A model generated the notes under the pieces. It did no database searches. It saw only the letters and a list, made by a program, of their open reading frames with translations, and was not told where the DNA came from. Positions 22,775-54,715 of a stretch of 64,000 nucleotides of DNA are shown piece by piece. Position 1 is the stretch's first letter; every line of letters begins with the position of its first letter. The translations under genes were made by a program, and so were the position numbers. The stretch is from Gyromitra esculenta. Taxonomy: Eukaryota > Ascomycota > Pezizomycetes > Pezizales > Discinaceae. Where the stretch lies: NCBI GenBank assembly GCA_038503075.1, contig JBCAML010000019.1, positions 496,001 through 560,000 of the forward strand, written 5' to 3'.

Positions 22775-23186
22775 TTTCACGGATGGAGTCAGGTAATGGG
22801 TTAGGGTTTGGTTAAGGGTTGAAATAGGTTATGGTGTTTAAAGTATGATGTCTTTGTTGTTCAGTTATCTTTCGGTTATGGGTTAGTGAAAGGAAAGTGG
22901 GGTATTTAAGTGATGGATTTCGGTCTTTCCTGTTGTCTTCTTCTTTCTTTTCTTAAGCAATGTTCTCTTTTACCTTCTCCTGTATTGATCGAATACTATC
23001 TCGGTTCTACCTCAGAACCCTCGCTGTTGCTGTTCAAACCACGCTGCACTTAACTTGCCTGGAGTTAGACCCCACCCTAGAACTTGTAGAAACATTGCAC
23101 TCCTTGAACATGTTCGTACCTCGCTTAAGCAGCACTGCTCACCTTCAGGGATAGTGAAGGGCTTAACAAGAGGCTGAACCGTGAGA
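22775..23186 (+). repeat. LTR L4, a 5' LTR followed by a primer-binding leader
   Basis: A 412-bp LTR in plus orientation (TTTCACGG to CCGTGAGA). Unlike the solo copies, it is followed directly by TT-ACGTTGCTTCC (23187-23199), the same leader found at the start of the internal region of element B, so it was a 5' LTR. The homology ends after about 35 bp at a LINE fragment. The AAGCAATGT motif (22955-22963) in the LTR can pair with ACGTTGCTT of the leader with one G-U wobble. Confidence 0.82.
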
Positions 23187-23222
23187 TTACGTTGCTTCCC
23201 TATCTACACCTTCTACCGTATT

Positions 23223-24310
23223 CACTCAACTCTGCCATTGGTTCCATCACCATCCAGTCTGTGGCAATAGACACACATTCCCAGAATGTGTCGTTGACGG
23301 TCATGAACAACATGTTTGCCAACACCCATTACAGGAAAGTTGGCCAATTTCTCCACCTAATCCCAGGAGCTTGCTCCCTACACCTTGACAAACCATTACA
23401 CCAACTTGTTGTACATGGTATTCCCACCTCTATGGAGCCCGCTGCTATTCAGCAAGAACTCTGCAACTTCAACCCTGGCCTTATCATGGATATCCCCCCC
23501 AGATGGCTCACTCTACCTGAAAAACGAAGAGGGAAAACAGTTTCCTCAATTGTTATCACACTTTCTGGCCCCAAAGCTAATGAGATCGCCAATCGCACTC
23601 GCTTATCAGCCTTTTCTACCACTGTTAGATCCAAACGCAAACTCCACTTTGGACCCTCCACCCAGTGTTCCCAATGCCACAAATTTGGACACCACACAAA
23701 CAAATGCCCCAATCAACCATGCTGCCGCTGGTGTGTTGGACTTCATCCTACTGCCGCTCATAGCTGCCCCACACTCTCTTGCTCAACTAAAGGCCGCCCC
23801 TGCTCTCACACTCTTGTCAAGTGTGTCAACTGTGACGGACCCCATGAGTCACACCTGAACAGCTGCCCATCACGCCCTTCAAAGGCCTCACCGCCCCCTC
23901 CGGCAGATGACCAGATGGACCTTTAGGTTGCTTCACCAATACTTTTCTAACCCCTACTAACTTTGATTGAAAACTTTTTCTGGCTACTCTCTGCTTCCGT
24001 TGTGGCTTTACTATAGACTTTCTTCTATGGTTTCTCATTGTTTTTTTTGGTTGTTAGTTGCAAGTCTCATTACTCTCATAGGCATACGCTGTCAACTTTC
24101 CCTGCCCCTTTAAGTCGTTCTATCGCAGGAACATTGTCTTGTTCTTTTGGAAGTACTTAGCTCGGTTTTCTTTTGTGTTCTCTTTTGTTACCCAGGCGGA
24201 TAAGGATGTCTACTTGATGGGGATAGGTTTTTTGACTTCATAACCTTCGTGTTGCATAAGCAGTTTTGTACCTAGAAACAATAATCAAATGATTTAAACA
24301 AAAAAAAAAA
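23223..24310 (+). mobile_element. 5'-truncated ORF1-only LINE (HAL1-like), poly(A) ended
   Basis: The C-terminal half of a LINE ORF1, a 375-bp 3' region and a tail of A residues (from about 24300). The same ORF1, 3' region and tail order, with almost the same 3' length, is found in the longer copy at 49373-51407. Neither copy has reverse-transcriptase coding sequence. The tail abuts the broken pol gene of gypsy element C at about 24311-24316. Confidence 0.8.
23230..23926 (+). pseudogene. LINE ORF1 fragment with zinc knuckles
   Basis: An open frame of about 230 codons encoding the C-terminal part of a nucleic-acid-binding ORF1 protein. It has a middle domain (VHGIPTSMEPAAIQQEL), then CCHC-type knuckles: CSQCHKFGHHTNKC, CCRWCVGLHPTAAHSC and CVNCDGPHESHLNSC. 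It ends at PPPPADDQMDL. Such proteins package LINE RNA and act as chaperones. The first residues before about 23230 come from the LTR leader, not the LINE, so the fragment is 5'-truncated. It keeps the frame that the 49.8-kb copy has lost. Confidence 0.8.
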
Positions 24311-31429: not shown

Positions 31430-31619
31430 CTAGTTTTTGATACCCTATTTGTGGGACCGCTGGGCCAGGGCAGGGTAACTATCCTTGGCGTGTTACCCGT
31501 CCTTCGATTTTCTGTTTGCTCCAGCCACCCCTAACGAAGTCAACACCTCGCCTATACATCACCACATCTTATGCCTGCCCATCAACTCTCGATCCAAAGC
31601 TTTTCTCCTACGCCTCAAG

Positions 31620-32272: not shown

Positions 32273-33445
32273 ATGCCTTCTTCCGCTTCCGCTTCCGCTT
32301 CGAATGATACACTATCCAGAATCTGTCACTTGATGGACAGCAAAGCATTCAAATACAGCAACTTCCCATATCAAATTCCTAAGGGCAGCACTGTTGAGAC
32401 AGAAGTTACTACCATCTACCAATCATGGAAAGCGATCCAAAATATTTTTGTTGTTCGCTCTCCAATTTCCTACACACTTTTGAAAGAAAGGTATCATGGA
32501 GAACAAAAGTTGATGGCAAGCATCACAGAGCACACAGAAGCCATTCATACCTTTGCATTCTACCCTTCTAGCATGGGAGATTTGGAAGTCCGTGATCAGG
32601 AAGGAGTTTTATTGGGATACAGATTCAAGCTTGCAAAATCACAGGTGCAAACTTTGACAGAATCTGATGCATTGCTGCCTGATCGCACTACCAGGAAAAG
32701 GGGGGGAGGTGGAGATCCACTTGCACGGGGTGTATATGACACAAGGCATTATGGTGTGTGGGCTCATTACAATAAGAGAATGATGGAGACAGCAGAGACA
32801 AAAAGGGATCAGCCTATTGCTGATAAATGGTTGAAGGAAAATCAGGAACTATTTGAGGCAATCTCCTACGAACTGAGAATGCAAGCACCAGAACAGTGGG
32901 TGAAGTTCACGGGCCCTGTTGTTAAACATATGGCAACATACAAAACCAAAGCGGGGAAGGCATTAACACTTGCTGCAGGTACCTGGCATGGGGTTTGTAT
33001 CAATAGAGGGCAGCAAGGTGATGTATCAGCTACACATCAGGATTGGATGGACCTGCCTACTTGTTTTAATGCAATGGCACCATATGGGACAGGATTCAAA
33101 GGTGGAGATTTGGTTTTATGGCAACTGAAAATGAAGATTCAGGTTGGCGTTGGTGAATGCTTTATGTTTTTGGGAACTCTAATTGCTCACAAGGTGACAG
33201 AGATCACAGAGGGGACAAGGAACTCTATTGATCTTTTTACTGCAAAAGGCAATTTTGACAAACTTGATCGATACAATGAAAAGGTAGGAAATCAAAAGTA
33301 TGGTAGGAGTAAAGGGAAAAAGAGAATGGAAAAAGGATTGGCAAAGAAAAAAAAGGATAGAAAGAGTCATAGAGCTGAGCTACGAGAAGCAAAGAGGGAA
33401 AGGCAAAAGGGTATGAGGCAGGAAAAGCCAAGATGTAATAATTAG
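32273..33445 (+). CDS. TET/JBP-like 2-oxoglutarate Fe(II) dioxygenase carried by the Helitron
   Basis: An intact 390-codon ORF. The C-terminal half holds a double-stranded beta-helix dioxygenase signature: His255-x-Asp257 in SATHQDWMD, a glycine turn FKGGDLVLW, distal His306 in GTLIAHKVTE, and Arg316 in EGTRNSIDLF. The H-x-D...H spacing (49 residues) and the Arg ten residues later fit the fungal TET/JBP-related (2OG-FeII_Oxy_6-like) families, some of which oxidise 5-methylcytosine; others have unknown substrates. Residues 335-390 are Lys/Arg-rich, consistent with nucleic-acid binding or nuclear import. It converges on the Rep-helicase gene, whose last exon ends at 34047. No introns are needed. 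The ATG at 32273 is the first in frame; an upstream exon at 31993 is possible. The DNA substrate is inferred. Confidence 0.75.
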   Translation: MPSSASASASNDTLSRICHLMDSKAFKYSNFPYQIPKGSTVETEVTTIYQSWKAIQNIFVVRSPISYTLLKERYHGEQKLMASITEHTEAIHTFAFYPSSMGDLEVRDQEGVLLGYRFKLAKSQVQTLTESDALLPDRTTRKRGGGGDPLARGVYDTRHYGVWAHYNKRMMETAETKRDQPIADKWLKENQELFEAISYELRMQAPEQWVKFTGPVVKHMATYKTKAGKALTLAAGTWHGVCINRGQQGDVSATHQDWMDLPTCFNAMAPYGTGFKGGDLVLWQLKMKIQVGVGECFMFLGTLIAHKVTEITEGTRNSIDLFTAKGNFDKLDRYNEKVGNQKYGRSKGKKRMEKGLAKKKKDRKSHRAELREAKRERQKGMRQEKPRCNN

Positions 33446-34046
33446 TGGATTTTCTTTGTATTCATGTGTGATTTACGAGTTGAGTGTCTTTACGGTATGG
33501 AATGTTAACAGGTCATTTGTGTGTTATATTGCATGGCACTAGGCAGTAAGTACTAACCCTCTATATTTAGATGCTGTTCGAACAGGTTTACTCTACTAAC
33601 GATCAAGAAAATGAATATCTTTTATGCTAGTGTTCTATATCTCCAACTACTACTACTAATATAATTACGATTACTGTTACCAATGTTTTAGCAACAACAT
33701 CAAACAGCATTATCTGCATGGTTTTACTTTACTACAAATTTTTCAACTGCCACATGAAGCATCCTGGCTACCACTATTTACTTCTTTGTTACCAAATACT
33801 GTCCTTCTACTTTCTTTGAGACTGTTACCTTGTTACCACCACAATCATTTTAACAGTCCTGGAACAATTTACCATTCTCTTGAGACTAATCACCCCTTAG
33901 TTTATTAAACTCTCCTGACCTTATTTTCCTCGTTACCACTAATTAGCTACAGCATAACCATCTACTTTCCACTTCTTGATCTCTTAATTTTTTCGACATC
34001 AAATATTCACGACAATTGGCACCAGCACTGAACACACTACTATGAC
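33446..34046. other. Intergenic between convergent Helitron genes
   Basis: An A/T-rich 600-bp stretch with repeated short runs such as ttaccactactaat. It should contain the 3' UTRs and polyadenylation sites of the dioxygenase (plus) and Rep-helicase (minus) genes. No ORF or RNA is recognised. Confidence 0.5.
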
Positions 34047-34344
34047 TTATGATACCAACACTGCCAATCTCTCATATTCTTTCACAGCCTCAATGTCAAA
34101 TTTTACTGCTAATGGATCAAAACAGGAGATACTGACATCTTCCCAGCGTTTGGCCCTACTTAACGCAGTATACGCCTGACCAGCACTAAAAAGGGTTTGA
34201 TCTAATGCAACGCTAATATTGTTCAAGGAGAGCCCTTGAGTTTTGTGGATTGTGAGTGCGAAAGCATTTTGAATTGGCAACTGAGTCCTGGAATATAGGA
34301 TTCCATAACTGCGAAAGTGGACTGTATCAAGTTGTATTTCCACC

Positions 34345-34363
34345 ATCTACATTGCATGTTAGT
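34345..34363. repeat. Target-site duplication of the LINE, left copy
   Basis: ATCTACATTGCATGTTAGT, 19 bp, repeated exactly at 40780-40798. On the minus strand it contains the branch-site-like ACTAAC and the 3' splice site ATGTAG of the helicase intron. This copy is the one that would join to the final helicase exon. Confidence 0.93.
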
Positions 34364-34642
34364 AGTAGTAGTAGTAGAATTCATTTACGCATCCAACCCT
34401 TAGGTTATGGCGATCGCACTATCTAAACAAAACCCAAACAAAACAACCTAATAACAAAAACAAAAACAAACAAAATAAACCCAACATAACTACCTCTTCA
34501 TCTCTTATCTGCCTAACAATAAAATAAAATAAAAAATAAAAAATAATAATAAAATAAACATAAAACATAACAACATTTCAACCATCAATCTCACAATTTG
34601 ACTCTTCTCACTCCATATTTATCTCGGTTTCAATTTCTCTTC

Positions 34643-37600
34643 TTACTTTTCCAAATCCCCATACCCCCATTCTAGCTCCCTATCTTCCTCTTCTTTCTCC
34701 TCTCTCTCACATCGTCTATTTTTCTTAAACTCCTTCCATATCTTAGCCCCGTGCTCTAACCCCTCTTGAGAATATAAAAGTTCTTTAACTCCTACTTCTT
34801 TCTCCAGCTCTTTTTCAGCTTTATATCTGGAATCGATCGTAAACATACATTCTTCCAAGATATGTTGTACGTTTTGGGTCCCCTTTCCGCATTCGCATTG
34901 GTCGTCTTCGCTTTTCTTAATTTTGACTCGATATGCGTTGGTCCAGATATGTCCTGTTCTGAGTCTTCCGATAATGACTTTTTGACTTCGCTCATCATCC
35001 GGGATTCTTGTTTCTTTTCGCGTTTTTGGGCTACCGTCATAGCTTTTCCCTTTTCTTGGGTCGGTGCTCCATTGTTCTTGCCATTCTTCGTTGGTTTTCC
35101 GTCGCGCTTCCGAGGCTAGGTATGACATTGATATAAACCAATCCTTGTCCTTAGTTTTTCCGCATCCTGCTTTGGCCAGAATATCTGCTTTTTCATTCCT
35201 GACCGTATTCGCATGAGCTTTTACCCATTCGAGGGTTGTTGTTATCCCTCTTGCTTTGGCTTCGTCGATCTTCCATCTTATCCTTCTTGCCATCATTTCT
35301 CCAGCTCCCACCTCCCTCTTCTTCACTCTCATCATCGCTTCTTGGCTATCCGTCCTGATAACCAATGACGTTACCCCTTTCTCCCTGCACTCTTCCATCC
35401 CCTGTTCTACCGCTTTTTTTATTCCCACCATTTCTGCATCCATAATCTCCATCTCTTCTCCCATTCCATAACTTCCTTCCCAAATTACTCCTCCCCACCT
35501 GTCGATCCTACATACCCCAACCCCTACTTTTCCTCCTTTCTTCGATCCATCAGTATACATCACTACCTCTTCTCTCTCTTCCCTTCTTTTCCTCTGTTTC
35601 TCTAGGTCCTCCTTATCCCCACTCCCGATTATAACCACCAGCTCTTCTCTTATCTTCTCTTCCCACTTTTTCTCCTTCCTTTCTATTTCCTCACACTTTT
35701 CCACCTTCTTCCATCTTCTTCGGATATTCTCACCTATCCTTGCTAGTCCACGTCTTACCCCCCCTTTTTTCTCCACTTTTTTAATCCCCTTCTTTCCCCA
35801 CTCTTCTTCATCATTCTTCCTCCTTCTTTTTTCCTCTTCTTGTTCTTTAATCTCCCTCTCGGCTAACTTCCTCATTGGGTGGCTTCTTTCCTTATTCATT
35901 GCTTTGATAGCAATTCTTTTTTGTCTTTCGTTGAGTCGCAGCGCCGTTGGTACGAGATCGTTTTCGACTCGAATCGCTCCTCCCGGTGTGGTTCTCAAGT
36001 ATCCTCCCAACTTGCGCATTGCCTTTTCATCCGCTCTGTCCATCTTCTCCGCCAGCCCTTTCTGTCCCATCCACCATACTCTCGATCCATAATCCATCAC
36101 ACTCCTTGCGCATCCTATATACATCTTCCTCATATTTCCTACCCCGCACCCTTCCTCTCCTTTCACCAATCTTCTCATTTTTGCCACTACATTCTCACTC
36201 TTCTTCACCTTAATATCTACATGACTCTTAAAATTTAACTCTCTATCCAGCCACACTCCCAACCATCTCATCACCTTACTTTCTTCTTTTCCCATACTCT
36301 TTGGTGTATAGAACTTTTCTTCTTCCTCCATTTCTTTTTCCTTTCCTAGCCTTATCCATTCCAATTTATCCTCTGCAAATTTGACATCATTTTCCTCCGC
36401 CCACTTATATGCTTCTGCCATCAATTTTTCCCCTCTCTCTATGACTTCCTCCCAATCATCTCCAGCAATTACCATCGTGATATCATCGATAAAAGTTGGA
36501 ATAATTGCGTCGCTCAGCATATGTTCTTCGCAGTATTTCTCCATTTGTTCGAGTAGCGGTGCTATATATGTATTAAATAGCAGTGGTGATATCGGGCTTC
36601 CTTGTGGGATTCCTGTATCCACTTTCTCCCACTCCGCTTCTCTACCATCAAACCTTAGTTTGACTTCTCTATCTTTCATAAAACTTTCGACCCAGGTTAC
36701 TAGCTCTTCTTCAACTCCTACTGCTCGCATTCTGTTGCCTAGTCTTTTCCTCGCCACATTCGGGAACGCCTGGTCGATATCCGCTGCTACTATCATCACC
36801 TTCTTTCCCTCTCTCTGCTTCTCTCTTGCCCAGTCCAGCGTCCACTCCACGCATTCCTCTGCCCCTCTGCCCTTTCTTCCTCCCCATTGCCACTTATGCA
36901 TTTTTCCCTTCTCCTCAACTCTCCTTCTAATTCTTCCCTCCACTATCTTTTCGAGTACCTTTGCTAGCGTGTTGAGTAGGGAGGCCTTTTTATTCCCCTG
37001 GGAGTTTATTGCGTCTTCAACTTCTTTTTCCGTTACCTTTGATAACTGACCTTTTGGTATTGTTGCTGAGTTTCGCTCCTGGTCTCGTTCTGGTGCTTTC
37101 AGGAAAAGTTTGCTTCGAAGTAGCTTTTCTTTTTCTTGGAAGCTGTCGGCGCGCGTGTTCGTTTCTTGGTTTCTTAGCGTCGGCATTTTCGTGTATATCC
37201 TTTGATTGAGCGACCTCCACACCGTCCACATTTCGCTCTGACTCTTAGCCTCTCCTATGAAGCTATCCCACATTTCCTTCTTTTTCTTTCTTATCAATTT
37301 GAACAGTCCGTTTCTTTCTTTTTTCCATTTTATCTGCTCCTCTTCTTTCCATTCCCCTTTTCCTTTCTTTGCCCACCTCCGACACTTGCTCACTTCTTTT
37401 CTTTTTTCTTTTACTTCCTTATCGAACCATTTTTTGCTTCTCCACATCATCCTCGCCTCCGGTATCCCTTCCCTCATTGCCTCCGTGGCTACTTCCGTTA
37501 GTATCCTGGCAATGCTCTCAATTCTTTTCCCCTCGATCGCTTCTTCCCATGCTAGCTCTTTCTCTAACCACATGGCTTCCGCTTTCTTTTGGACCTCCTC

Positions 37601-38413
37601 CCAGTCTGCTTTTTTCAGATTCCATCGTTTGCTGAGGGGGTTCGATACCCTGTCCGCTTCGTTCGCATACGTGATCTCGATTGTTGCATGATCTGATCCG
37701 GTGTCCTTTTCTTCTACGATTCGCCAGTTACACTTCCTCGCCATATTTTCTAACACCCATGTTAGATCCAACACCGATTTGTCGTGTCCTCTTCTTCTCG
37801 TGATTCTGTCAATTTCGTTTAGCAATACTAATTCTTCTGCATCTACTACCTTCATTATCATTTCCTCCCTTATGCTTTCTCTCTTCGTATCCCATAGTGC
37901 TCCTTTCGCATTGAAGTCACCTAGTACCATTAAATCTACTCCCTGTCCTAGCCCCTCTTTCCATTCTTCCATACACCATCCTTTTCTTTTCTTGTGGTTC
38001 TGATTATATATGTTGCAGATCCTCAAGGTCCGGCCTTTTTTCATCTGAACGTCCATAATGCTCGCATCCCAGTGGTCCCACAAGTCGTCTCGTATTGTGT
38101 ATTTTAGTCCACTATCTTTTCTTACCATCCACATTACCCTTCCACTCTCTTCCCCCTTTCCTTGTTTGTACACGATTTCGTATCCGTTATGTCCGACGGT
38201 AAATTGATTATTTCCTACGTCAGTTGTTCCGTTTACCTTTTTCCCTCTGCCTTTATTCCCTATCCATGGTTCTTGTATCGCAATTATGTCCGCGCTTGCA
38301 CTGTCGTCCATGAGATTTTGCATGACATTCGTTGATCGGTTGCAATTGTGTTGAATTATCGTCACCCCCTCTCCCCTTGTCCCTAGTCCTTCGTTTTTGT
38401 CGTATCGATTCAT
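34643..38413 (-). CDS. LINE ORF2: endonuclease, reverse transcriptase, RNase H (internal RT deletion)
   Basis: An open frame of 1256 residues. The N-terminal APE-type endonuclease has IIQHNCNRSTNVMQ, IIAIQEPWIG, LMVLGDFNAKG and GSDHATIEI. The RT keeps motif A (VAADIDQAFPNVA), motif B (GIPQGSPISPLLFN) and motif C (FIDDITMVIAG). The RNase H domain has VMYTDGSKKGG, MDAEMVGIKKA, IRTDSQEAM and HANTVRNEKADI. A C-terminal CCHC follows (CECGKGTQNVQHILEEC). Between SQGNKKA and SLLNTLAKVLEKI, near 36980, the usual PG-x-DG...YRPIS segment is absent, so an in-frame deletion of roughly 50-60 codons has probably removed RT motifs 0-1. The start codon overlaps the ORF1 stop as TAATG. Confidence 0.9.
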   Translation of the reverse strand: MNRYDKNEGLGTRGEGVTIIQHNCNRSTNVMQNLMDDSASADIIAIQEPWIGNKGRGKKVNGTTDVGNNQFTVGHNGYEIVYKQGKGEESGRVMWMVRKDSGLKYTIRDDLWDHWDASIMDVQMKKGRTLRICNIYNQNHKKRKGWCMEEWKEGLGQGVDLMVLGDFNAKGALWDTKRESIREEMIMKVVDAEELVLLNEIDRITRRRGHDKSVLDLTWVLENMARKCNWRIVEEKDTGSDHATIEITYANEADRVSNPLSKRWNLKKADWEEVQKKAEAMWLEKELAWEEAIEGKRIESIARILTEVATEAMREGIPEARMMWRSKKWFDKEVKEKRKEVSKCRRWAKKGKGEWKEEEQIKWKKERNGLFKLIRKKKKEMWDSFIGEAKSQSEMWTVWRSLNQRIYTKMPTLRNQETNTRADSFQEKEKLLRSKLFLKAPERDQERNSATIPKGQLSKVTEKEVEDAINSQGNKKASLLNTLAKVLEKIVEGRIRRRVEEKGKMHKWQWGGRKGRGAEECVEWTLDWAREKQREGKKVMIVAADIDQAFPNVARKRLGNRMRAVGVEEELVTWVESFMKDREVKLRFDGREAEWEKVDTGIPQGSPISPLLFNTYIAPLLEQMEKYCEEHMLSDAIIPTFIDDITMVIAGDDWEEVIERGEKLMAEAYKWAEENDVKFAEDKLEWIRLGKEKEMEEEEKFYTPKSMGKEESKVMRWLGVWLDRELNFKSHVDIKVKKSENVVAKMRRLVKGEEGCGVGNMRKMYIGCARSVMDYGSRVWWMGQKGLAEKMDRADEKAMRKLGGYLRTTPGGAIRVENDLVPTALRLNERQKRIAIKAMNKERSHPMRKLAEREIKEQEEEKRRRKNDEEEWGKKGIKKVEKKGGVRRGLARIGENIRRRWKKVEKCEEIERKEKKWEEKIREELVVIIGSGDKEDLEKQRKRREEREEVVMYTDGSKKGGKVGVGVCRIDRWGGVIWEGSYGMGEEMEIMDAEMVGIKKAVEQGMEECREKGVTSLVIRTDSQEAMMRVKKREVGAGEMMARRIRWKIDEAKARGITTTLEWVKAHANTVRNEKADILAKAGCGKTKDKDWFISMSYLASEARRKTNEEWQEQWSTDPRKGKSYDGSPKTRKETRIPDDERSQKVIIGRLRTGHIWTNAYRVKIKKSEDDQCECGKGTQNVQHILEECMFTIDSRYKAEKELEKEVGVKELLYSQEGLEHGAKIWKEFKKNRRCEREEKEEEDRELEWGYGDLEK

Positions 38414-40521
38414 TACTTCCTTTTTGGTTGGGGGGTGCTATTTCCTCGAATACCTCTCATCTTGTGGTCCCATGTCGAATGGCCGATCCCATTGCACTCT
38501 CCGCATTTTTTGGCGTTCCTGCACTGCCACCACCTGTGTCCCTTTTCCTGGCATTTGTTGCATTCTAGTTTAGCTGAGGTCATACCATTCTGAGTGAATT
38601 CTCTCATCCATATGGCGTATTGTCCTTGTGCCTTGCATACTGTATATCCTTCCTCATCACGAGATCGATACCAAGGGCTCTTTAGAATCTCCTCCCTCTC
38701 TGATGCCTTCGCAACGTGCACTACTACTGCTTGTGCTCTGCCGTCCGGTTTCATGTCCCTAATATCAGCTAGCCATCTTGGCTTCTTCATGATCTTAACT
38801 CCCCATGCCTTCTCCAACAACTCCTGGATGCCTTCCATATTATCCTTCCACTCACTTACGTTCCAACCCTGAACGACTATTCCTGCCCATGTGTCGAGTG
38901 CTCTGGCCTTCACGTTTCTTTCTGCGAGTTTGTTGACAATTTGTCCTCTGTTTTCTCCTTTATTGAGGACGATCTTCAGTTCGCCCTTCATCGTGATGTT
39001 CACTTTCTGGATTTTGTCCGCCTCAATTCCTAGCCCTACAGCTTCACTCATTAGCTCTTCCTGGGTTGGCATCTTGCCTCCTTCCTTGGTTGTTAGCTTT
39101 TTCGCTACTACCACAGCGGCGTTGTTTTCTCTCGTTCGCTCGCTCTCCTTCTCCACCATTCTCTTCTAGAAGGCTGCTTTAGCCTTTATCGCTACTTCTT
39201 TCTCTCGGTTTACCTGCTTCCATTCTGATGAGGCAGGCGCTTGTGTTCTAGCTATGTCCGCATAGCTAAACTTCCGGTATTCGTCCTTACTCGCTGTTTG
39301 TTGCGAGTTCGCTGGTGGTGATTGCATCGGCGCAATCGGCATTGACGTTGGCATTGGCGTTGGCGTGGTCTTCCTCGGACTCTGGCCCTTCCAGTATCTA
39401 ACCTCCCTTTTCAACTCTTCTACTTCTCTTCCTAGCCCATATATCCGTTTTTCCATCCTTTCCATCCGCTCTTCTATCGTCCCTCTATTCCTAACCGATG
39501 GTTCTCCCCTCTCTGGTGTCCGCCCTTTGATTTCCTCTCTCCCTTTTCCTTTGTCAGTAGGTATAATATGTGCAAACTTACTTGCAAGCAGTCCCGTGAC
39601 TACTGCTCTGGTGATTGCCCTCTTTGTATTCTTCATCACTCTAATACTTCCGAACTTGCTGTTCTCCGTATTTTGTTCTCTTTGCCCTACATCGTTCATA
39701 CCTCTTTTCCTTTTCTCCTTCTTTTCTCCTCTTGCTCTTTCTACCTCACCTTCCAAGGCCTTTCTTATCTCCCCTGTATTCTCGTTCCCCCCTCCGTTCC
39801 TCTTGTACTCCTCCGTAACTTCCTTAACCATCTCCTCCCATACTTTTTCCTCTATTTCGCTCAACCACTCATCTTCCATCTCTACATCTTCTTTTTTCCC
39901 TTCCTTCTTGTCTTTCTCCATCTTTTCCTCTGCTTCCCTTTTCCTCTTTTCTTTCTCTTCATCCTCCTTCTCCTTTTTCTCTATATACTCCTTCATTATC
40001 TTGGTTTGCGCCATATTTTCCTCGTGGATTCTGTCTTCCTCCTTTTATGCCTTGCTAAGATCTCCCGGGAAAGGTACGAATGGTGGCATCTCATCGCTTT
40101 CGTATCCTTCATGGAAGGTTCGATTTTCGCCGTATGTTAATTGTGTTGGCGTTTTTCCTCCGCTCTCCTCCTCCTCGCTCTCCGTATCGCTATCGATTTC
40201 CATTACCTCAACTTCCTCCTCCTTTCTTCTTCCCTTTTCCTCATTCTCTTCCTCGTTATCCCACTTCGTTCTCTCAATAAATTTCTCCTCGATTTCGATC
40301 ATCCTTTTTGCACTGTTCTTCGCTCTGCTTTCCCAAACGTACCATCTGGCTCCTTGGCCCAATGGGTGCGTAAGATCTGGCCCCGCAAATGTTCTTCCGT
40401 AAAAGGGGTGGGGCTTGGATGTCGCACACTCATTCTTCCACCATACTTCTTTGTACTTGACTCCGTTCTTGTTCGCCGTCCTGTTAATTAGCTGGTTTAG
40501 TTCCATGCTGGTTACGCTCAT
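38413..40521 (-). pseudogene. LINE ORF1 with two in-frame stop codons
   Basis: One reading frame from ATG at 40521 to TAA at 38413, interrupted by TAA at 40047-40045 (after DLSKA) and TAG at 39168-39166 (after KAKAAF). All three segments are in the same frame, so they are pieces of one protein of about 700 residues. The N-terminus is acidic, the middle is Lys/Glu-rich coiled coil, and the C-terminal third has a gag-like region and two CCHC knuckles (CNKCQEKGHRWWQC and CGECNGIGHSTWDH). The parent codons could have been CAA and CAG. ORF1 proteins bind LINE RNA. It may instead be several short ORFs, but shared frame and spacing argue against that. Confidence 0.8.
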
Positions 40522-40533
40522 TTTCCTTATCTT

Positions 40534-40608
40534 ATCTGATAGTGCTTATCAGATTTCTTCTTATCTTATCAGGATCTTATCTTGTTTTAATCTGGATCTT
40601 ATCCAGAT
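40534..40608 (-). promoter_or_regulatory. Two hairpins in the LINE 5' UTR
   Basis: ATCTGATA/TATCAGAT (40534-40541 with 40547-40554, 5-nt loop) and ATCTGGAT/ATCCAGAT (40590-40597 with 40601-40608, 3-nt loop). They sit 12 and 68 nt upstream of the ORF1 start codon and are separated by TTATC-rich repeats. They could influence translation or RNP assembly; function is not shown. Confidence 0.6.
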
Positions 40609-40779
40609 GTCGCTTAGTATCTTATCGCTATCCAATCGGATCTAGTCTCTTCCGAGAGGTTCTGGTAGTCTTGGCGACAAGGTGATGTGTTGTCCCTGTA
40701 TGGGTAAGGGTTCGAGTTTCCTCCGAGGTATCGCCAAAGTTTAATCTAATTAGAGGATTTTCGCTATCTCTTCTTTAAT

Positions 40780-40798
40780 ATCTACATTGCATGTTAGT
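40780..40798. repeat. Target-site duplication of the LINE, right copy
   Basis: An exact second copy of the 19-bp sequence at 34345-34363. It retains the original branch-site and acceptor sequence, so the helicase pre-mRNA now has two possible 3' splice sites 6.4 kb apart. Confidence 0.93.
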
Positions 40799-43700
40799 TA
40801 CTGACTGTTTAGTAAAAGATGCATATTTTCATCATACCCGTATACCCTCAATAGTAGGGAATGCTACAGTTGGTAGTCCTTCTTCTCGAATGGCAACAAT
40901 CACCCCACAGGTCCCATTGGATACTCCAACAGAGAGTAATGTGTTATTTGAAAACATTACTTTTGCTCCAAGTACACAGACAACCTCCACAGGATAGTTG
41001 GTACCTTTTTTGAAGGTACGTTCATGTGATTCCTTTGATAGAAGTTGTCCTTCCTCTCGATCAATTGCATGGAAGACATGTCTCATAGTGTCAGGTAGGG
41101 TATCAAGAAGAAGATTGTTGATTTTGTTGGCTGTTTGGCGAAAAGAGACCAAATAAGTTGTTAGGTAGGTTTTTGCAGGGGCGTGAAAGGCTTGAACTTT
41201 TTGTTGAATTATTTCACTGCTGGCAGGACTGATGTTGCCAAAGCGCAGATCGTTTAATAGGTTAAAAAAGGCTGGATCCTCACACTGACGTATTGATTCC
41301 CTCAGAAATATTGGACTGAAAAGCCTCCATATTGGTGAAAAGAAAACCTTCTTTCTGGTGACAGGAGGCAATTGCAACAAATCGCCCAAACACAATACAT
41401 GGAGGTTACCAAAAGGCTTGATATTGTTGTGAAGGCGAGCAAAGAGAGAGGATATGAATTCAAATAGGTCAGAGTTAACCATGGATATCTCGTCAATAAT
41501 CAGAACCCTGACTTTTTTGAGTTGGTGAAGCTTTTCCGTTGACTGAAAGATGTTCGATTTCAGTCCACCACCATCTCCATGACCACCAATGTGAAGGGCA
41601 CAGTGAATCGTTTGACCATTTATGTTGTTGGCAGCTATTCCAGTAGGTGCAAGTAACAGGAACTCCATACGCTGACTTGAAAACCATTGCTGTAAGGCAC
41701 GAAGCAAATAGGACTTGCCAGTACCTGCAGGGCCAGTAATAAACAATTTCACTCCAGGGCTGCCTAAGCGAGCTTGAGCTACTGCTTGAGTAATGTTACA
41801 GTATGCCGTGTATTGATCTCCACGAAGATCAAATATTGCCATTGAGTTGGGGACTGGGAGTGGAGATTGTTGCATCATAATTAACTGGTCTTGAATTACT
41901 GACTTCACGGATACGCATTGACCATCGACAATCGTATCAAGGAGCTCCAGGTAAATATCTGCTTGCTGAAGTGAATGTTGATGGATTCCTGACTGGTATG
42001 TTGACATCAAATCATGATAGAGATTTGGAAACTGAGCTAACATGTGATCTTTGTAAGTAGTGAAGTTGCCGTTACCAAAGATCTCTTCGTCAGATCTCCA
42101 TGGCTTCAGTTGAAGAAGTTTGACGAAAAAGAATGAATCACCATCAGCTAAGCGACGATGAATAGTACGGATCAGGACAGGCTATATTCCATGTTAACAA
42201 ATATCCAAGCAAACCTTTGACACAACTTTACCTTTTTACGGGCATATACAAAGTTTCCATTCTTGTCAGGCCAATAATTGCCTTGACTTCTCCTTTTTCT
42301 CCGTTCCAGCTTATAATAAGAATGATAGTGGAAATATGTAAGTCTCTCAAACATGGGATGTGCTGGTCGAGCAAAATACTTTTCTAATGCATCGGGATAG
42401 TAGGGTGTGTCATCGTCAGCTTGCTGTTCGAGAAGCCAAGCAGGTTTGACAACCGATGTTCGTTCAGCAGGAATAGAGGTTGGAAGATACAAACAGCCAC
42501 TCGACATTTGAAAGATGGGAAAGCTCAAGAACAAAACCATGCACTCCATTGAACCCATCCTATGGGAAAGAAGATGTGATGTGGTATGATTCTCACTCCT
42601 GATATCAACCAAAGATTTTGGTTCAGCTTTTGTGACATACTTTGAAATGTATTTTGCCAGACCTCCGGAAGTGCAGTACTGGACATTGCAATGAGCCTGC
42701 CACAGGAGAAGAAGTTGTGGGCAGTACGGAACAACATACTGATCAGCTTCAGTCAGCCTGCGGTATGTGTATCTGACTTCTCCTGGCTTTTGGAACGTGA
42801 TTGGTGACAATTCTGCAGGAAAGCCTTTACGGCATGGGCCTGTCATTGTATCATCACGCCCACAAAGATGGATATGGCAGTGATGTATTTGATGCATCAA
42901 GACCAGCTCATACAACTCAGATTCCATTTCTGGATCAGGAATATCTGCACGGATAAAGGCTTTGCCAATTAACTCTGATTGATCAAATTCTGTCCAAAGA
43001 AGTGAATGAGTGTGAATAGCACCACGCAGTTGAAATTCATGACGTTCCACCAACTCCCGCAACTGACCAAAGCCTGAGACAGTTGATCCACGAAAATAGG
43101 TTGTTTTGATCCAGTGCCAACGTTCATAGTAGTATTGAATAGCATCCCATGGGCGATTGGAGGGTAAGGTATCATGGTTGCCAGTTTGAAGGAGAATTTG
43201 CTGATACTTTGGCCAACGTTCTGAGAAGGTTGTTGTGACAAATAGTGTTGGAACCCCAAATGTTTGAAGCATACAACGAATCTTGGCCTCAGCAGTACTA
43301 AAAAAGGTATCACCAGTTCAAATAAACTTGGGAATCGTGGTAGTGAGTTCTTCGTTGAGGATGGACCAAGAACCATATTGACTGGGTTGGAGTAGTTGAG
43401 AAGCAGTATATCGTTGATCTGCTGATCGTTGAGCTTGGCCTTTGATTAATCTGCAATTATTTTGGAAGATGCGAGAGGCTTCAATTTCCATGTAAGTCCA
43501 TGCAGGCCAGTAGTGGTCATCCCGATAATGTGAAACAATGGAGTTTAACTTTGTCTTGGTGTCCACCAACCGAGTGTTGTGATAAGGGATCCTTTCTTGT
43601 CGAGAAGCCAACTGCCAGTGGCCCAGACCCCATGGATAGAGAACAGGAAACAAAAGAGGTTCTAAGGCAGGATCAGATCGTGTGAGACCTATATGATGAT

Positions 43701-44915
43701 GTTCAGGGCTTGAAGATGGACCTGGTAAAGATCCAACAGGCAGTCTGAATCCACGATGATCTTCGTTTGCTGTTGCTGATGTATAGTCAAAGGGATGGAG
43801 GACAAGATCTGGACGATTCATTGGACGTGACTCTTCTGGTGGAGCTAATGATGAGATAGAAGCAGTGGGAACTGGATGACGTTGCAAGTGAGTACGAACA
43901 TCATATCTGTGATATAGTGGATTGTTTGCTAATAGCCAGTCACGGCAGTGTTGCAGATGTTGAATATCATGACCTTGATCAACTGAGTTATTGGAACTTT
44001 CCAAAAATGCACCAATACAGCCACTAAACAATGCAACAGCACGTTCATTATTCGATAATGACATCTTCCCTACCTAATTTCAGCACACAATGTATTTGGA
44101 ACACAAGATGGAAATCTTACCAGTGACAGTGCGGTAGGTAGCATAAGGATTAATTGTCTGAGAGTGACTTTGTGTGCGGCCCAAGCTTGTCTGCAGAGAA
44201 ACAGGACTTAGGAAAATCCTAGAGCGTCAAGACAAACTGATAAGAACGTCAGGCCATGGGCCTGCAGCTGGTGGTTCCCTGGGAGTTGTCTTGCAATGAG
44301 TACAGACAGCAATTTGTGGTGATCCACTTTTCATTCTCTCGGATACTGAAACGCCTAAAACAGCTACAAGAGGATAAATTTTGTTATTATCCTTATCGAT
44401 CCAGTTGACATGACGTGGAAGCATCAATATGCCACAAAAAGAACATGGACAGTCAGGGAAATATGTGTCATAAGTGGTTCGAAACCTAGAAAGAAGTCGT
44501 TGAAAAGGTACATCAGGGCTAAAGATGCTTTGGATGGAGCTGTGGATGTTGGTTTTTGGTGAGGATTCCTTTCTAGTGTTGTCCAATCGTGGTCTTCTAT
44601 TACTGGTAGACTCTGCGTATTGGCGAGATTGTTGATTACTATGTTGAACAAAACTAAAAGTAGAAAACAGGCCACCAGAATCCATCAGGATATCATCTGA
44701 TGGTACAGCTGTCAATGCAATGGATTGTGATATATTCGTCATATCACCTGCTAATTGGTTGCTAGTTGTACGATGAGGGACATATGAGCGAAAGCGAATT
44801 GACATTTTGGTTTACTGAGTTTCTCTATCAGTAAAGCCCTCATATTATTCCACCATGACAAAATTGAAAATATAAAAAATATAAAAAAAAGATACAGTAT
44901 CCAATCCTTCTATTG

Positions 44916-47164: not shown

Positions 47165-47506
47165 ATAATGTCTTTGTCTTTCTGTTATGTTCGGTTATGG
47201 GTTATGAAAAGGAAAAGCGGGGTATATAAGGAGCATAGTTTTGTCGCTTTTGTAGTTTTCTCCTTCTTTTCTTAAGCAACGTTCTTACTTTACTTCTACT
47301 GTATTGTTTTAATACTACCTCGATTCTACTTCAGAATCCTTGCGGTCGCTGTCGCTGTGTAAACCCTTACACTTAACTTGCCTTGAGTTAGACCTCCATA
47401 GGACCTGTAGAAAACTTCGTTACTCTTATCGCAAAGATTCTCGTTTAAGTAGCTCCGCTCACCTTCTGGGATACAGAAGGGCTTAGACTGGGATCGAACC
47501 GTGAGA
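47165..47506 (+). repeat. Solo LTR L7, right piece
   Basis: This continues the LTR that starts at 31353: TAATGTCTTTG, TATA block GGGGTATATAAG, CTTAAGCAACG motif, hairpin CCTTCTG-GGATA-CAGAAGG, end CCGTGAGA, then GTAGT (47507-47511), the same pentamer found before the left piece. Confidence 0.92.
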
Positions 47507-49003: not shown

Positions 49004-49010
49004 GAGGGGG

Positions 49011-49372
49011 TTTTTTTTTTTTGTTCAAATCATTTGTTTATTGTTTCTAGGTACAAAACTGCTTATGCAACACGAAGGTTATGAAGTCAAAAAACCTGTC
49101 CCCACCAAATAAACACCCTTATCCACCTGGGTAACAAGAGAGAACACAAAAGAAAAACGAACCAAGTACTTCCAACAGAACAAGACGATGTTCCCGTGAT
49201 AAACGACTTAACGGTGCAGGGAGTATTGACAACAAATGCCTGTGAGAGTAAAGAGACTTGTAAACAACAACCAAAAAATGATGAGAAACAGTAGAAGAAA
49301 GTCCACAGTAAAGCTGCAATGGAAGTAAAGAGCAGCCAGGAAAAGATTCCAATCCAAGTTAGTTGGAGTTGG
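49011..49372 (-). mobile_element. LINE 3' end only (5'-truncated), HAL1-like family
   Basis: A poly(T) run at 49011-49022 is followed by about 350 bp matching the 3' region of the ORF1-only LINE (GTTTCTAGGTACAAAACTGC onward), in minus orientation. ORF1 is absent. It lies head-to-tail with the longer copy to its right. Confidence 0.85.
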
Positions 49373-51407
49373 TTTTTTTTTTTTTTTGTTTGTTTAAATC
49401 ATTTGATTGTTGTTTCTAGGTACAAAACTGCTTATGCAACACGAAGGTTATGAAGTCAAAAAACCTATCCCCACCAAGTAAACACCCTTATCTGCCTGGG
49501 TAACATGAGAGAACACAAAGGAAACATGAGCCAATTACTTCCAAAAGAACAAGACAATGTTCCTGCGATAAAACGACTTAAGGGTGCAGGGAGAGTTGAC
49601 AGCGTATGCCTATGAGAGTAAAGAAACTTGCAAACAACGGCCAACAAAACAATGAGAAACCATAGAAGAAAGTCCATAGTAAAGCTACAACGGAAGCAGA
49701 GAGTAGCCAGGAGAAGTTTCCAATCAAAGTTAGTAGAGGTTGGGAAAGTATAGGTAAAGTGACCTAAAGGTCCATCTGGTCATCTGCTGGAGGGGGCGGT
49801 GAGGCCTTTGAAGGGCGTGATGGGCAGCTGTTCAGGTGTGACTCATGGGGTCCATCACAGTTGACACACTTAACAAGAGTGTGAGAGCAAGGGCGGCCTT
49901 TAATTGAGCAAGTGAGGATGGGGCAGGTAGAGCTGCAGTGGGATGAAGTCCAACACACCAGCGACAGCATGGCTGGTTAGGACATTTGTTTGTATGGTGT
50001 CCAAATTTGTGGCATTGGGAACACTGGATGGAGGGACCAAAACGAAGTTTGCGTTCAGCTCGGACGGTGGTGGAGAAGGCAGATAAGAGCGTTTGATTAG
50101 CGATCTCATTAGCTTTGGGGCCAGAGAGTGTGATGACAATGGAGGAAACTATTTTCCCTCTTTGTTTTTCAGGTAGTGTAAGCCATCTTGGGGGTGTATC
50201 CATAGTGAGGCCCGGGTTGAAGTTGCAGAGCTCTTGCTGAATGGCAGAGGGCTCCATGGAAGTAGGAATACCATGTACAACAAGTTGGTGCAATGGTTCG
50301 TCAAGGTGTAGGGAGCGAGCTCCAGGGATGATGTGGAGAAATTGGCCAACTTTCCTGTAATGGGTGTTGGCAAACATATTGTTCATGACCGTCAACGACA
50401 CATTCTGGGAATGTGTGTCTATTGCCACAGATTGGATGGTGATGGAACTGATAGCATAGTTTAGCTTGTCTCTGAGTTCCGTGGGTGTCCCTTGAGTAAG
50501 GGGAGTGCCATCGCGTTTGACAAGCAAATGGTGTGCGCGCATGGTGGGGGTGATGGTGAGAGGGGAGACATGAGTCTTAGGGGCAGGTGCAGAGGCAGCC
50601 TGTTTGGTCTTTGCTGGTGGGGGCTTTCTCTTGGGTTTGCTGGCTGCCACCTGAGCCCATTGCAGGGGCTTTGGGGCAGGAATGGGTGCTGGGATAGCAG
50701 CAGCAGGAGCAGGAGGAAGAGGGGCACTGGGTGCAGGTTGTTCTGGAGGCGCTGCCTTCCCTACTGTGAGCAGCAGGTGGTCACGCTCTAGTTTGCTCAG
50801 AGTCGGAGACTCTGGAAACATGTCTGGGAGGGGTGCAGGAGCTGGTTTGCTTGCTGCTTCCTTGAGGGTGGTGATTTCCCCTTGTAGATGCTGTATCATG
50901 TCAAGGAGTTTTTGGAAGTGGAGGAGGTTGAACTTGTTGGCTCTGGCTAGAGCATTGCAAGCATCAAACCCAAAAGCTGGCTCATTGCCTACGTGAGTGG
51001 TAATGGCCTCTCCTGGTTTATTCCAGAGGCTAGCCCAATGGGTTGGCTTTCTGAAAACAGGAGGGGATGGGGGAGAGGTGTCAGCTCTCTGTCTTTTCGA
51101 TGGTGAGGGGGTTCTTGGTTCCGCCGCAGATGAAGAAGAGGAGGCAACGAATGGGTTTGGAGTTCCCTCAACCTTATGATGGGGCAATATGGGTGTGAAC
51201 ATGTTGCCTTTACCTTTGGGAGGCATTGCAACCGTGGGTTGTTGTGTAAACGATGATCTAAATCGTTTGTAAAAGAGGGGTAATGGAATGAAGCCAAAGT
51301 GCTAAAGACGTTTGGCTGTGTGTAACGCTGTTGCAACACAAAAGGTGGTGGTGAACTTTCAATCGAAGAGGTTGTAGCGGTGATGTAGGATGACAGCAGT
51401 CAACTGG
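49373..51407 (-). mobile_element. ORF1-only LINE (HAL1-like), near full length
   Basis: In minus orientation: a short 5' UTR (about 51400-51227), ORF1 (51226-49764), a 377-bp 3' region and a tail (poly(T) on the + strand from 49373). There is no ORF2. The ORF1 stop to tail distance equals that of the 23-24 kb copy. Confidence 0.85.
49764..51226 (-). pseudogene. LINE ORF1 with one frameshift near the C-terminus
   Basis: The frame from 51226 (MPPKGKGNMF) encodes a Ser/Pro-rich N-terminus, a short coiled-coil-like segment (LLHFQKLLDMIQHLQ), an Ala/Pro-rich linker, a middle domain and zinc knuckle CSQCHKFGHHTNKC. After CVGLHPTAA, one base is missing relative to the 23-kb copy, and the rest (CVNCDGPHESHLNSC to ADDQMDL, ending 49764) is in another frame. 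The unshifted frame stops at 49832. The protein would bind RNA for LINE particle assembly. Confidence 0.8.
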
Positions 51408-51447
51408 TTTTTTTTTGTTTTTTTTGTTTAAATCATTTGATTATTGT
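51408..51447 (-). repeat. Isolated LINE 3' tail fragment
   Basis: T-rich run plus GTTTAAATCATTTGATTATTG, identical to the last bases of the LINE 3' end, abutting the 5' end of Helitron copy 2. Only about 21 bp of LINE body is present. Confidence 0.75.
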
Positions 51448-52303
51448 TAAACATTAAAAAAATTGAGTAGGTGTGTTGATCCTACTGTTTAATATAACGC
51501 TAAACCAGATTAGACACTTTTTGCCAGATTTGGAAGCACATCGATTTTCTTGATATTTAGATTTTATATATGATATCGCTATATGTATCAAAACACATGT
51601 TATTGTTATAATTACTTTTATAAGGTATCGTGAATAGTACATCATCCAAATAGTGTGCTTTGGAAATATTCAAATTCACTTTTGAACCTTTTCCCTTCAT
51701 GTTTTTTCTTCGAGCCAATCCTAACATAAAATTTTAGTGTTTTTGTCTTCTCACTTCAATACTTCAACGCTAATTATTGCTCGATTCACCATTCTCAACA
51801 ACATTCAAAAACCCTAACCCTTCATGATGTCATTCCCCAAACCTTCACAAATATCATTCGTATGCTTGGATACACAATCATACTAAACATTAGATTGTGT
51901 TGCTTTTTCAGCCTACGTCAACTACAACTTTGTTGTTGTATGAATAGCGTTGGACATTGTACATTTTGCACCAGATTGCTTCTTATTCTTTCTTTTTGCT
52001 CTGAATCAGCTGATTCACCTCATTCTTAGTTTGAGCTATCAACTCTCACCATGTGCCTTTGCGCATTCAATTTCCTATTTTAGCCCATGGCAAGTTATTT
52101 TCTGCTCGATTAAACCTTTTTGGTATGTAGTACGTGTGATCTTAGAGTGGTTGTTAAGCTCAATTGCACAGACTTCTTTGATATCTGTACAGAATCGGCA
52201 TAATTTTTGGTTTCTCTTGCTTTTGCTTATTGCTTCTCTTTTGGTGTGTATGTTATAATTAGTTCCTGTGTTATAGCTTTGGACATGACGTGTTAAATAC
52301 CCC

Positions 52304-53696
52304 ATGATTCCCACCTGGGTTTTCATTCTCCGCTTTCTTCTTCTTCTTTCAAACATTCGGGGTTTACTTCAGTCACCCTTACCTTTACCAACTCACACTT
52401 TTGGTAGAACATTTTTCACACAGTATCAATTGTAAGTATTATTTCCACATGCCTATTTATTATTCTTTCGTTGGCAGAATCTCCTCAATTTCTGGTGTGG
52501 GTGGATTCAAATCGGCAACAGTCCTTCATCATGATGCAGATGGTGCATCCCGTGAGGTGTCTGTGAAGTACTACCAAAACACCGACAACACTCTCTATCC
52601 TGATCGAGTATACTTATTTTATGGCACTGTTATCTTTTTTGCTGGAAACACTCCAAAGGTTGGCTACCATCTATCATCCTTTTGTATGCCTCATACTTTT
52701 TGATTATGCTGATAACACAAGTAGTACTCATTGATCCGTAATGTTGAGCTTATGAACAATGCACCTGCAGACAAATTCATTCCCAATGATCCATTCTGTA
52801 CATCAACTGTCACTATGCTCTCGGATCTTGAAGATATGCCCAATACAACGTATTCTCACTTTCAAGGTCAGATGTATCAGTATAATAGTGAGGCTAAAGA
52901 AGATGTGCTGGTAATAGCTTAAATTATTCCACCTGTTAAAACAAATTTGACAAAGCTAATTTGAATCCTGTAGTGCGCTCTCACCTTTTTGATTGACACC
53001 AAAGTCCTATTGTTCGCAAAGTTGGTTAAATATTTGCATTCGGGGAAGGTACTGGATATAGCTTTCAGGTATATTTATGAGAGTGATATAGATAGAGGTA
53101 AGATCATGTCAATTACTCGACACCAATTTTTTAGCTCTCAATTTACTAAATATTTGACATTATAGCATATGGGATAACTCACGCTATAAATTTCTCACGT
53201 GATGGTGTTCCCAAAGATGACAAAGCCTCCATATTCCAAACTCCGAAGTCCAAACGCAAGGTTTTATTGGGCCCACTCAATACCTCGCCAAGTCCAATGA
53301 AGATAATTAAGCCAGATCCAGACAGTGGTCCTGCAACACCTACAAAATCGGGAGTGTCTTCAAGCACAATACCAGGATCGCCAGGTCAGTTTCACATATA
53401 ACAAGTATTGTGGATTTTAATACTCACTACTCCTATTAGTAGGGCCCATTCGAGCTAAGCTGAACTTTGGACGAGATGCTGATAGAAGCAATCTGTTCAA
53501 ACGACCGGAAGCAAGAGCGAGTCGTACTCCTTTTCATAGTCCAGAGCGTTCCGATGATCAGCCATTACCTATGGAAACTATTGATATGGTTGAGTCTTCT
53601 TCGGACGAGGATGAATTGTCTACTGCAGTGTCCATCCAGTCTTCAAAGTCTGAACGTGGTGGTAAAGGACAAGGGAAAGGAAAGGATAAAATGTAA
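52304..53696 (+). CDS. Helitron accessory protein, second copy, six exons, 364 aa
   Basis: Exons 52304-52431, 52478-52658, 52725-52910, 52974-53097, 53166-53384 and 53440-53696 are all in phase. They match the copy at 44916-46308, with a codon difference such as Arg (CGT) here against Cys (TGT) there at the start of exon 3; the Arg-to-Cys change fits a CpG transition in copy 1. The possible OB-fold and disordered tail are as described for copy 1. Its reading frame is fully open although its host Helitron is truncated. Confidence 0.6.
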
Positions 53697-53806
53697 CAAT
53701 AGAAGGATTGGATACTGTATCTTTTTTTTATATTTTTTATATTTTCAATTTTGTCATGGTGGAATAATATGAGGGCTTTACTGATAGAGAAACTCAGTAA
53801 ACCAAA

Positions 53807-54715
53807 ATGTCAATTCGCTTTCGCTCATATGTCCCTCATCGTACAACTAGCAACCAATTAGCAGGTGATATGACGAATATATCACAATCCATTGCATTGA
53901 CAGCTGTACCATCAGATGATATCCTGATGGATTCTGGTGGCCTGTTTTCTACTTTTAGTTTTGTTCAACATAGTAATCAACAATCTCGCCAATACGCAGA
54001 GTCTACCAGTAATAGAAGACCACGATTGGACAACACTAGAAAGGAATCCTCACCAAAAACCAACATCCACAGCTCCATCCAAAGCATCTTTAGCCCTGAT
54101 GTACCTTTTCAACGACTTCTTTCTAGGTTTCGAACCACTTATGACACATATTTCCCTGACTGTCCATGTTCTTTTTGTGGCATATTGATGCTTCCACGTC
54201 ATGTCAACTGGATCGATAAGGATAATAACAAAATTTATCCTCTTGTAGCTGTTTTAGGCGTTTCAGTATCCGAGAGAATGAAAAGTGGATCACCACAAAT
54301 TGCTGTCTGTACTCATTGCAAGACAACTCCCAGGGAACCACCAGCTGCAGGCCCATGGCCTGACGTTCTTATCAGTTTGTCTTGACGCTCTAGGATTTTC
54401 CTAAGTCCTGTTTCTCTGCAGACAAGCTTGGGCCGCACACAAAGTCACTCTCAGACAATTAATCCTTATGCTACCTACCGCACTGTCACTGGTAAGATTT
54501 CCATCTTGTGTTCCAAATACATTGTGTGCTGAAATTTGGTAGGGAAGATGTCATTATCGAATAATGAACGTGCTGTTGCATTGTTTAGTGGCTGTATTGG
54601 TGCATTTTTGGAAAGTTCCAATAACTCAGTTGATCAAGGTCATGATATTGAACATCTGCAACACTGCCGTGACTGGCTATTAGCAAACAATCCACTATAT
54701 CACAGATATGATGTT
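53807..54715 (+). pseudogene. Truncated Rep-helicase gene of Helitron copy 2
   Basis: This corresponds to exon 1 (53807-54491), a 51-nt intron and the start of exon 2 (54543-54715) of the copy 1 gene. It carries the same TGA after codon 192 (54383-54385). The frame runs out of the Helitron into a LINE tail, adding unrelated residues before a stop at 54757. No Rep nuclease or helicase domain remains. Confidence 0.85.

Follow-up and report, generated by a model that had tools for sequence, protein, structure and literature searches.

The window analysed here, a stretch of 64,000 nucleotides of Gyromitra esculenta DNA, contains a Helitron on the minus strand between positions 31430 and 47166, which is ~9.3 kb long once a LINE insertion is subtracted and has ends that are ambiguous by up to two T residues. 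Within it, on the plus strand and convergent with the Rep-helicase gene, lies a gene for a predicted TET/JBP-like 2OG-Fe(II) dioxygenase (32273..33445). The reading frame is open over 390 aa, and the protein contains the Fe(II)/2OG residues HxD...H...R in the expected order (H255, D257, H306 and R316), followed by a basic C-terminal tail with 23 K/R against seven D/E in 55 residues. The initial annotation of this DNA had described an intact ORF with these four residues and a basic tail, and all of these features were confirmed. A Ser/Ala-rich N-terminal tail starts at 32273..32320 (plus strand) and measures ~10 aa in the window copy. Across the dioxygenase copies this tail varies from ~10 to >100 residues behind the same ATG; it exceeds 100 aa, in frame, in copy L010, and several further copies also have longer tails.

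The Helitron and its ends

The Rep part of the Rep-helicase is represented by three open pieces on the minus strand (42172..44811). The piece at 42172-43272 matched PF14214 (E 5.2e-11) and shows HxH and two-Tyr motifs by eye, while the pieces at 44227-44811 and 43318-44064 had no Pfam match and were assigned by position. The PIF1-type helicase part follows on the same strand at 40832..42043 (PF05970, E 5e-31). The final helicase exon (34047..34346, minus strand), recognized by eye from the motif IHKTQGLSL ... AYTALSRAKRW, is separated from the rest by a LINE on the minus strand (34364..40779), on either side of which the same 19 bp occur as an exact duplication (34345-34363 and 40780-40798). 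The LINE, which we take to be Tad-like, contains RVT, endonuclease and RNase H domains, and was missing at that site from all 17 other Helitron copies examined. The presence of both Rep (HUH) and a PIF1-type helicase in the element identifies it as a Helitron.

Both termini could be placed, confirming the earlier proposal that the dioxygenase gene lies inside a Helitron. On the minus strand, the 3′ end at 31430 reads CTAG followed by TT, an arrangement seen in 18 of 18 three-prime ends. The 5′ end at 47166 reads TTAAAC, and its sequence, TTAAACATT, was found in the window copy, in a truncated partner and in three of the four other copies examined. In the copy on contig C18 (L031, G000:C18, after base 1232), the match breaks off at 46396, leaving 0.8 kb to the 5′ end. 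The empty site of an insertion on contig C5 corresponds to a retroelement that is present in uninterrupted form at 49415 and elsewhere, showing that the C5 target sequence was not duplicated. The absence of target-site duplication and the 3′ CTRR are characteristic of Helitrons; the 5′ TC and A/T insertion of the canonical Helitron1 were not found, as the 5′ ends read TTAAAC and the target is TT. A short hairpin 10-12 nt from the 3′ end, as in canonical Helitron1, was unsupported, the last 73 nt folding no better than shuffled sequences (z 0.05).

Segmental duplication in place of transposition was rejected for most copies because their 3′ flanks differ. Three groups are exceptions: L021 and L022 share one flank, L016 and L018 border on a related repeat, and L017, L020 and the first copy in L012 lie at one spot in the copies of a single retroelement, the zinc-knuckle family described below. 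This retroelement position, between TTTGATTNTTG and TTTCTAGG, was hit by four Helitrons (L012, L017, L020 and the window element at 51447, with L012 and L020 read on the 3′ side only) and may be a target hot spot.

The element at 51447..54715 (plus strand) is a truncated and inverted partner of the window Helitron. It consists of the 5′ 3.27 kb, 100% identical, without the 3′ part and the dioxygenase gene, and the two elements form a perfect 3.27-kb inverted repeat (43897-47169 and 51443-54715). The 5′ side of the partner is at the shared retroelement spot, and ~40 bp of target is repeated at the broken side. The partner might have arisen from the copy next to it by a rolling-circle insertion that was aborted. 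Closely spaced inverted Helitron pairs were observed on three contigs (L009/L010 on C3, L012/L013 on C16 and L021/L023 on C12), and the 3′ flank of the L014 copy (3512-3778) consists of 268 bp derived from this Helitron itself (window 33397-33664).

The dioxygenase and its relatives

Searched by itself at E<=10, the window protein matched no dioxygenase family of Pfam, Tet_JBP included, and a single-sequence search of the PDB gave none either; the check by Pfam profile that the initial annotation had proposed was negative for this protein. It did match phrog_61, a 2OG-Fe(II) oxygenase family, at 8.8e-5, as did 15 of 17 family members overall. PF13640 (2OG-FeII_Oxy_3) was matched by 10 of the 17 members (best 3.4e-5), and PF12851 (Tet_JBP) by one, P0001, over model positions 38-163 of 164 (E 0.0052; 16.5 bits, under the curated cut-off of 34.9). 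None of the 10 relatives listed singly reached a Pfam cut-off. Matches to PF06955 (7/17 members, best 0.0012) and PF01366 (2/17) were set aside as chance-like.

Profile searches against the PDB placed Naegleria TET structures on top, with E values of 0.045 and 0.058 for a three-sequence profile and 0.086 and 0.11 for a 17-sequence profile. The HxD motif was in register with 5cg8 in the first case and with both NgTET chains in the second, and the distal H and R were in register with NgTET in all four profile alignments. The aligned H, D, H and R of NgTET are its Fe(II)/2OG-binding residues. Cytolysin chains also appeared (E 0.22-0.62); they matched another part of the profile and were dismissed as chance-like. 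The 390-aa protein thus likely, though not provenly, adopts a TET/JBP-like fold, with the TET label itself sub-threshold. The original designation as a TET/JBP-like dioxygenase is supported by the oxygenase matches and the register with NgTET, with the Tet_JBP cut-off not reached.

Two relatives of the dioxygenase were found at first, with 54% and 44% identity. A profile search added 14 more, including proteins of Tuber borchii, T. aestivum and T. magnatum, and a third search added five (P0017-P0021), giving a total of 21, known as proteins only; the five that carry names are all from Tuber. In the window protein and P0001-P0021, the catalytic motif is HQD in 18 sequences and RQD in three, the region is absent from one, and HxE occurs in none of the 22. 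Among the 17 aligned sequences the corresponding counts are 13, three and one, and P0017-P0021 all have HQD. The three proteins with RQD (P0009, P0011 and P0012) are otherwise well conserved, and may lack iron binding. Two diverged dioxygenase relics in the G. esculenta genome read HKD and HLD.

Copies, clusters and CpG depletion

Across the whole genome, Rep has 20 near-identical places (from 28 matches, after exclusion of four second pieces, three matches on C9 and one on C21), and at 18 of them a dioxygenase match was present at the same site. The Rep places on C4 and C6 had no dioxygenase match, and the retroelement that marks the clusters described below lies in or beside Rep there. The initial annotation had proposed that absence of the gene from every other copy of the family would indicate a one-off capture; the 18 of 20 places that carry it rule out such an origin, and the dioxygenase is a standing gene of the Helitron family.

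For closer comparison, 20 stretches were fetched by dioxygenase match, of which 16 contain the starts of 17 copies (L012 comprises two copies, the second extending into L013, and L026-L028 were taken as diverged relatives). Gene presence in these 17 copies is no test of residence, because they were selected by dioxygenase match. In all 17, the dioxygenase block (32287-34363 in window terms) runs directly into the Rep-helicase block at 40780, the LINE being absent; the dioxygenase block starts at 32282 in L020 and at 32328 in L025, where it has a 0.4-kb interruption.

The dioxygenase frame is uninterrupted in 10 of 18 copies (the window copy, L009, L010, L011, the first L012 copy, L014, L015, L016, L018 and L020). 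The other eight are broken by a stop (L017, L019 and L022), by a frameshift (L021-L024 and the second C16 copy) or by the interruption in L025. An alignment of 16 copies, which takes in broken copies and omits the second C16 copy and L025, contained 55 nonsynonymous, 32 synonymous and three stop changes, a nonsynonymous/synonymous ratio of 0.64 of expectation (p 0.03). For singleton changes alone the value was 0.74, which is not significant (p 0.17). The helicase, in 18 copies, gave 0.68 (p 0.06), so the dioxygenase appears to be retained to much the same degree as the transposase. Weak and similar constraint in the two genes would fit a recent burst.

Contig C9 carries decayed helicase pieces (63-75% identical) and a dioxygenase fragment (48% identical, with a stop), ~2 kb apart and convergent as in the family. 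Because this diverged pair has the same arrangement, the pairing of dioxygenase and helicase is probably older than the present Helitron family. Two further sequences were noted. L038 (G000:C17:1015945-1016316), inside the cluster on C17, is a broken gene with a Tet_JBP match above the cut-off, and is a second TET-type fossil. L033, on C2, contains an open frame of 380 aa (1566-2705, plus strand) with 28% similarity to the dioxygenase and HxD...H...R by eye. It had no Pfam match, and the dioxygenase, Rep and helicase of the window found no match in its 4.5 kb (tblastn, 1e-3). L033 was set aside, and is possibly a domesticated or host relative.

The distribution of the Helitron in the genome is restricted. 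The window contains a retroelement with a poly(A) and a zinc-knuckle ORF, both recognized by eye (49008..51301, minus strand; ORF 49832-51301, no match in Pfam), and a second piece of the same family lies at 23129-24310. Among the matches listed (90, with 87 of 288 candidates scored), the copies of this retroelement group into a single cluster on each of 22 contigs out of 23; the clusters span 22-133 kb, and one outlier lies on C23. The clusters with 50-kb margins make up 7.5% of the genome. All 17 near-identical dioxygenase places that could be judged are inside these margins, from a total of 19 (one of them a C15 fragment) that remained of 32 matches after exclusion of six second pieces and seven diverged matches. 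The other two are on C16, a contig without a scored cluster, where a fragment of the cluster retroelement flanks one copy. Similarly, 18 of 18 near-identical Rep places judged (20 in total) are inside the margins, and 19 of 19 Helitron_like_N matches judged are within 50 kb of a cluster by eye, with two more on C16 (n=21).

Dispersed elements served as controls. Among the matches listed, the window Gypsy family was inside the margins in 4 of 36 cases, another Gypsy family in 9 of 41 and the LINE in 3 of 28, one of these three being the LINE inside the window Helitron. The controls comprised 78 of 131 Gypsy and 28 of 58 LINE matches; adjoining fragments of elements were excluded, as were some of the weaker matches, among them a Gypsy match of 57% that lies on C8 away from the clusters. 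Against the pooled controls, again among the matches listed, the concentration of dioxygenase places gave a Fisher p of 5e-12; with each contig counted once, p was 2e-16 against random placement (14 contigs). As exceptions to this pattern, six of the seven diverged dioxygenase matches fall outside the clusters; the seventh (C9) is within 50 kb of one. Another Helitron family (C21), for which no dioxygenase was shown, is also cluster-bound, so the location is not specific to the dioxygenase; being bound to the clusters characterises the Helitrons of this genome rather than the enzyme.

No matches to a kinase gene were seen by eye in the cluster cores among those listed (154 found). A single gene-poor, repeat-rich cluster per contig suggests a centromere. 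Telomere repeats turned up at a single contig end, and did not identify the contigs as complete chromosomes.

The Helitron copies bear CpG scars. C-to-T changes affect 18 of 34 CpG positions in the dioxygenase gene against 35 of 462 other C/G positions (p 1e-10); for the Rep-helicase the counts are 40 of 106 and 38 of 875 (p 2e-21), the baseline in both genes being other C/G positions of the same sequences and not host genes. In five older copies of the cluster retroelement the counts are 25/54 and 97/563, a smaller excess than in the Helitron. The CpG observed/expected ratio is 0.29 in the dioxygenase gene, 0.48-0.56 in stretches of the Helitron and 0.38 in the cluster retroelement; it is 0.82 and 0.96 in Gypsy elements, 0.90 in the LINE and 0.83 in the host-like left end of the window, which is annotated in part. 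Repeat-induced point mutation (RIP) in the classic CpA context was rejected, with no enrichment at CpA (8/187 changed, compared with 18/34 at CpG). Cytosine-C5 methyltransferase domains are encoded at several places in the genome, one of them broken; as no BAH domain was found at E<=0.01 in the methyltransferase on C11, the names DIM-2 and RID were not given. The depletion and hypermutability of CpG in the copies are consistent with CpG methylation of the clusters.

Possible role of the enzyme and comparison with known systems

We consider it fairly probable that the dioxygenase, as the resident enzyme of an autonomous Helitron, oxidises 5mC on the element and thereby eases its silencing. The dioxygenase gene, converging on Rep-helicase near the 3′ end, is resident in an autonomous Helitron family whose home on each chromosome would be a single cluster dense in transposons, possibly the centromere, with CpG sites there methylated by host enzymes. 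The dioxygenase would oxidise 5-methylcytosine on the Helitron, and probably on its neighbours too, leaving Rep-helicase transcribable long enough for rolling-circle transposition, and selection on the transposon would in this way preserve the dioxygenase gene. The CpG scars and the host cytosine-methyltransferase domains lend indirect support to this anti-silencing role, which is plausible. From these same scars and the layout of the clusters we infer a methylated, possibly centromeric setting in which the substrate would be 5mC. Any protection by the dioxygenase must be incomplete, because CpG decay continues in the Helitron copies.

An enzyme of the same TET/JBP fold might instead form a different product or act on a different target, for example by thymine hydroxylation (as JBP), by forming glyceryl-methylcytosine (as CMD1), or on N6-methyladenine or RNA; it could also act on the single-stranded Helitron intermediate in a process other than demethylation. 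The similarity to known enzymes is mainly confined to the oxygenase core, and Kojima (2025, PMC12730594), in the sections consulted, allows another activity for the PU and PE types, with CMD1 among the nearest structures. The CpG hypermutability, however, suggests that 5mC, the ordinary TET substrate, is present on the element, and we regard a different target as rather unlikely.

Less likely still is that the dioxygenase was captured as a passenger and hitchhikes on a successful Helitron without a role in its life cycle. There is a precedent for capture in Aspergillus, where a Helitron of A. nidulans is described as having captured a 2OG-dioxygenase gene fragment (PMC4289320, consulted in part), and both the weak constraint (0.64) and the lack of the gene, or of an intact frame, at two of 20 Rep places and in eight of 18 copies, respectively, are compatible with a passenger. 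Against this stand the 18 Rep places that carry it, constraint like that of the helicase, the pairing with a diverged helicase on C9 and the 21 protein relatives, five named Tuber. Least probable, and in our view very doubtful, is a 2OG-Fe(II) oxygenase outside the TET/JBP group, such as a prolyl-hydroxylase-like enzyme with a protein substrate: the relatives' best Pfam matches are mostly to PF13640 and not to Tet_JBP, but both profiles ranked NgTET first in the PDB with all four residues in register, P0001 matches nearly the whole Tet_JBP model, and the carrier and probable host agree with the TET-bearing Helitrons in the consulted sections of Kojima (2025).

The anti-silencing reading can be extended to the centromere itself. 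Helitrons with an HxD-class dioxygenase, distinct from the PE type, may be specialised for centromeres through insertion into centromeric retroelements, with a 5mC oxidase that rewrites centromeric methylation. We offer this extension as speculation, and think it improbable. If true, a selfish element would be a resident modifier of the host centromere epigenome. More generally, the family is young and multi-copy, has open enzyme genes, CpG scars that suggest methylation and one recognisable home per contig; it makes the anti-silencing idea directly testable, and invites one to ask if centromeres are shaped by selfish demethylases.

Several known systems invite comparison. FoHeli elements of Fusarium oxysporum (PMC5148889) also have non-canonical ends, and one group is 9-11 kb long; the account examined does not mention a dioxygenase, and the present element differs in combining a CTRR-type 3′ end (CTAG) and a TT target with the lack of a 5′ TC. 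NgTET1 of Naegleria (PDB 5cg8, 5cg9 and 4lt5) is the nearest solved sequence match, with HxD, distal His and Arg in register, although the match reaches E values of 0.045-0.11 only and spans ~65-85 residues. The AG-type TET of Kyakuja (KDZ) and CcTET of Coprinopsis cinerea are, like the present enzyme, transposon-encoded TET/JBP proteins with HxD, but their carrier is a DDE-type element and not a Helitron; CcTET was not among the PDB matches of the family profiles at E<=10. Oxidised 5mC around Kyakuja-type transposons and centromeres is cited in Kojima (2025, PMC12730594).

The closest parallel is with the TET-bearing Helitrons of that study, which, in the sections consulted, reports them in five species from four families of Pezizales and proposes that they escape methylation-based silencing. 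The pairing of TET and Helitron is thus already published, contrary to the initial annotation, which knew of no described link to a Helitron in an ascomycete. As in those elements, a Rep-helicase is accompanied here by a TET/JBP-like gene, and the named relatives found here are all from Tuber. Carriers of the PE type are DNA transposons of Pezizomycetes or Agaricales; the carrier here is a Helitron. The same sections give HxE as the hallmark of PE-type TET/JBP, in contrast to the HQD (18/22) and RQD (3/22) of the present family, in which HxE does not occur, and assign their elements to Helitron1, whereas the 5′ end and target are non-canonical here. Centromeres are mentioned in them for Coprinopsis and in one reference title only. 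As far as we have seen, the novelty of the present family lies in the HxD variant, the CpG scars and the confinement of the Helitrons to clusters, the last of which was not found for TET-bearing Helitrons in the literature examined. Reports of TET enzymes encoded by transposons now come from several fungal lineages; if the present family belongs to the published Pezizales group, its HxD would show that not every such enzyme is described by HxE.
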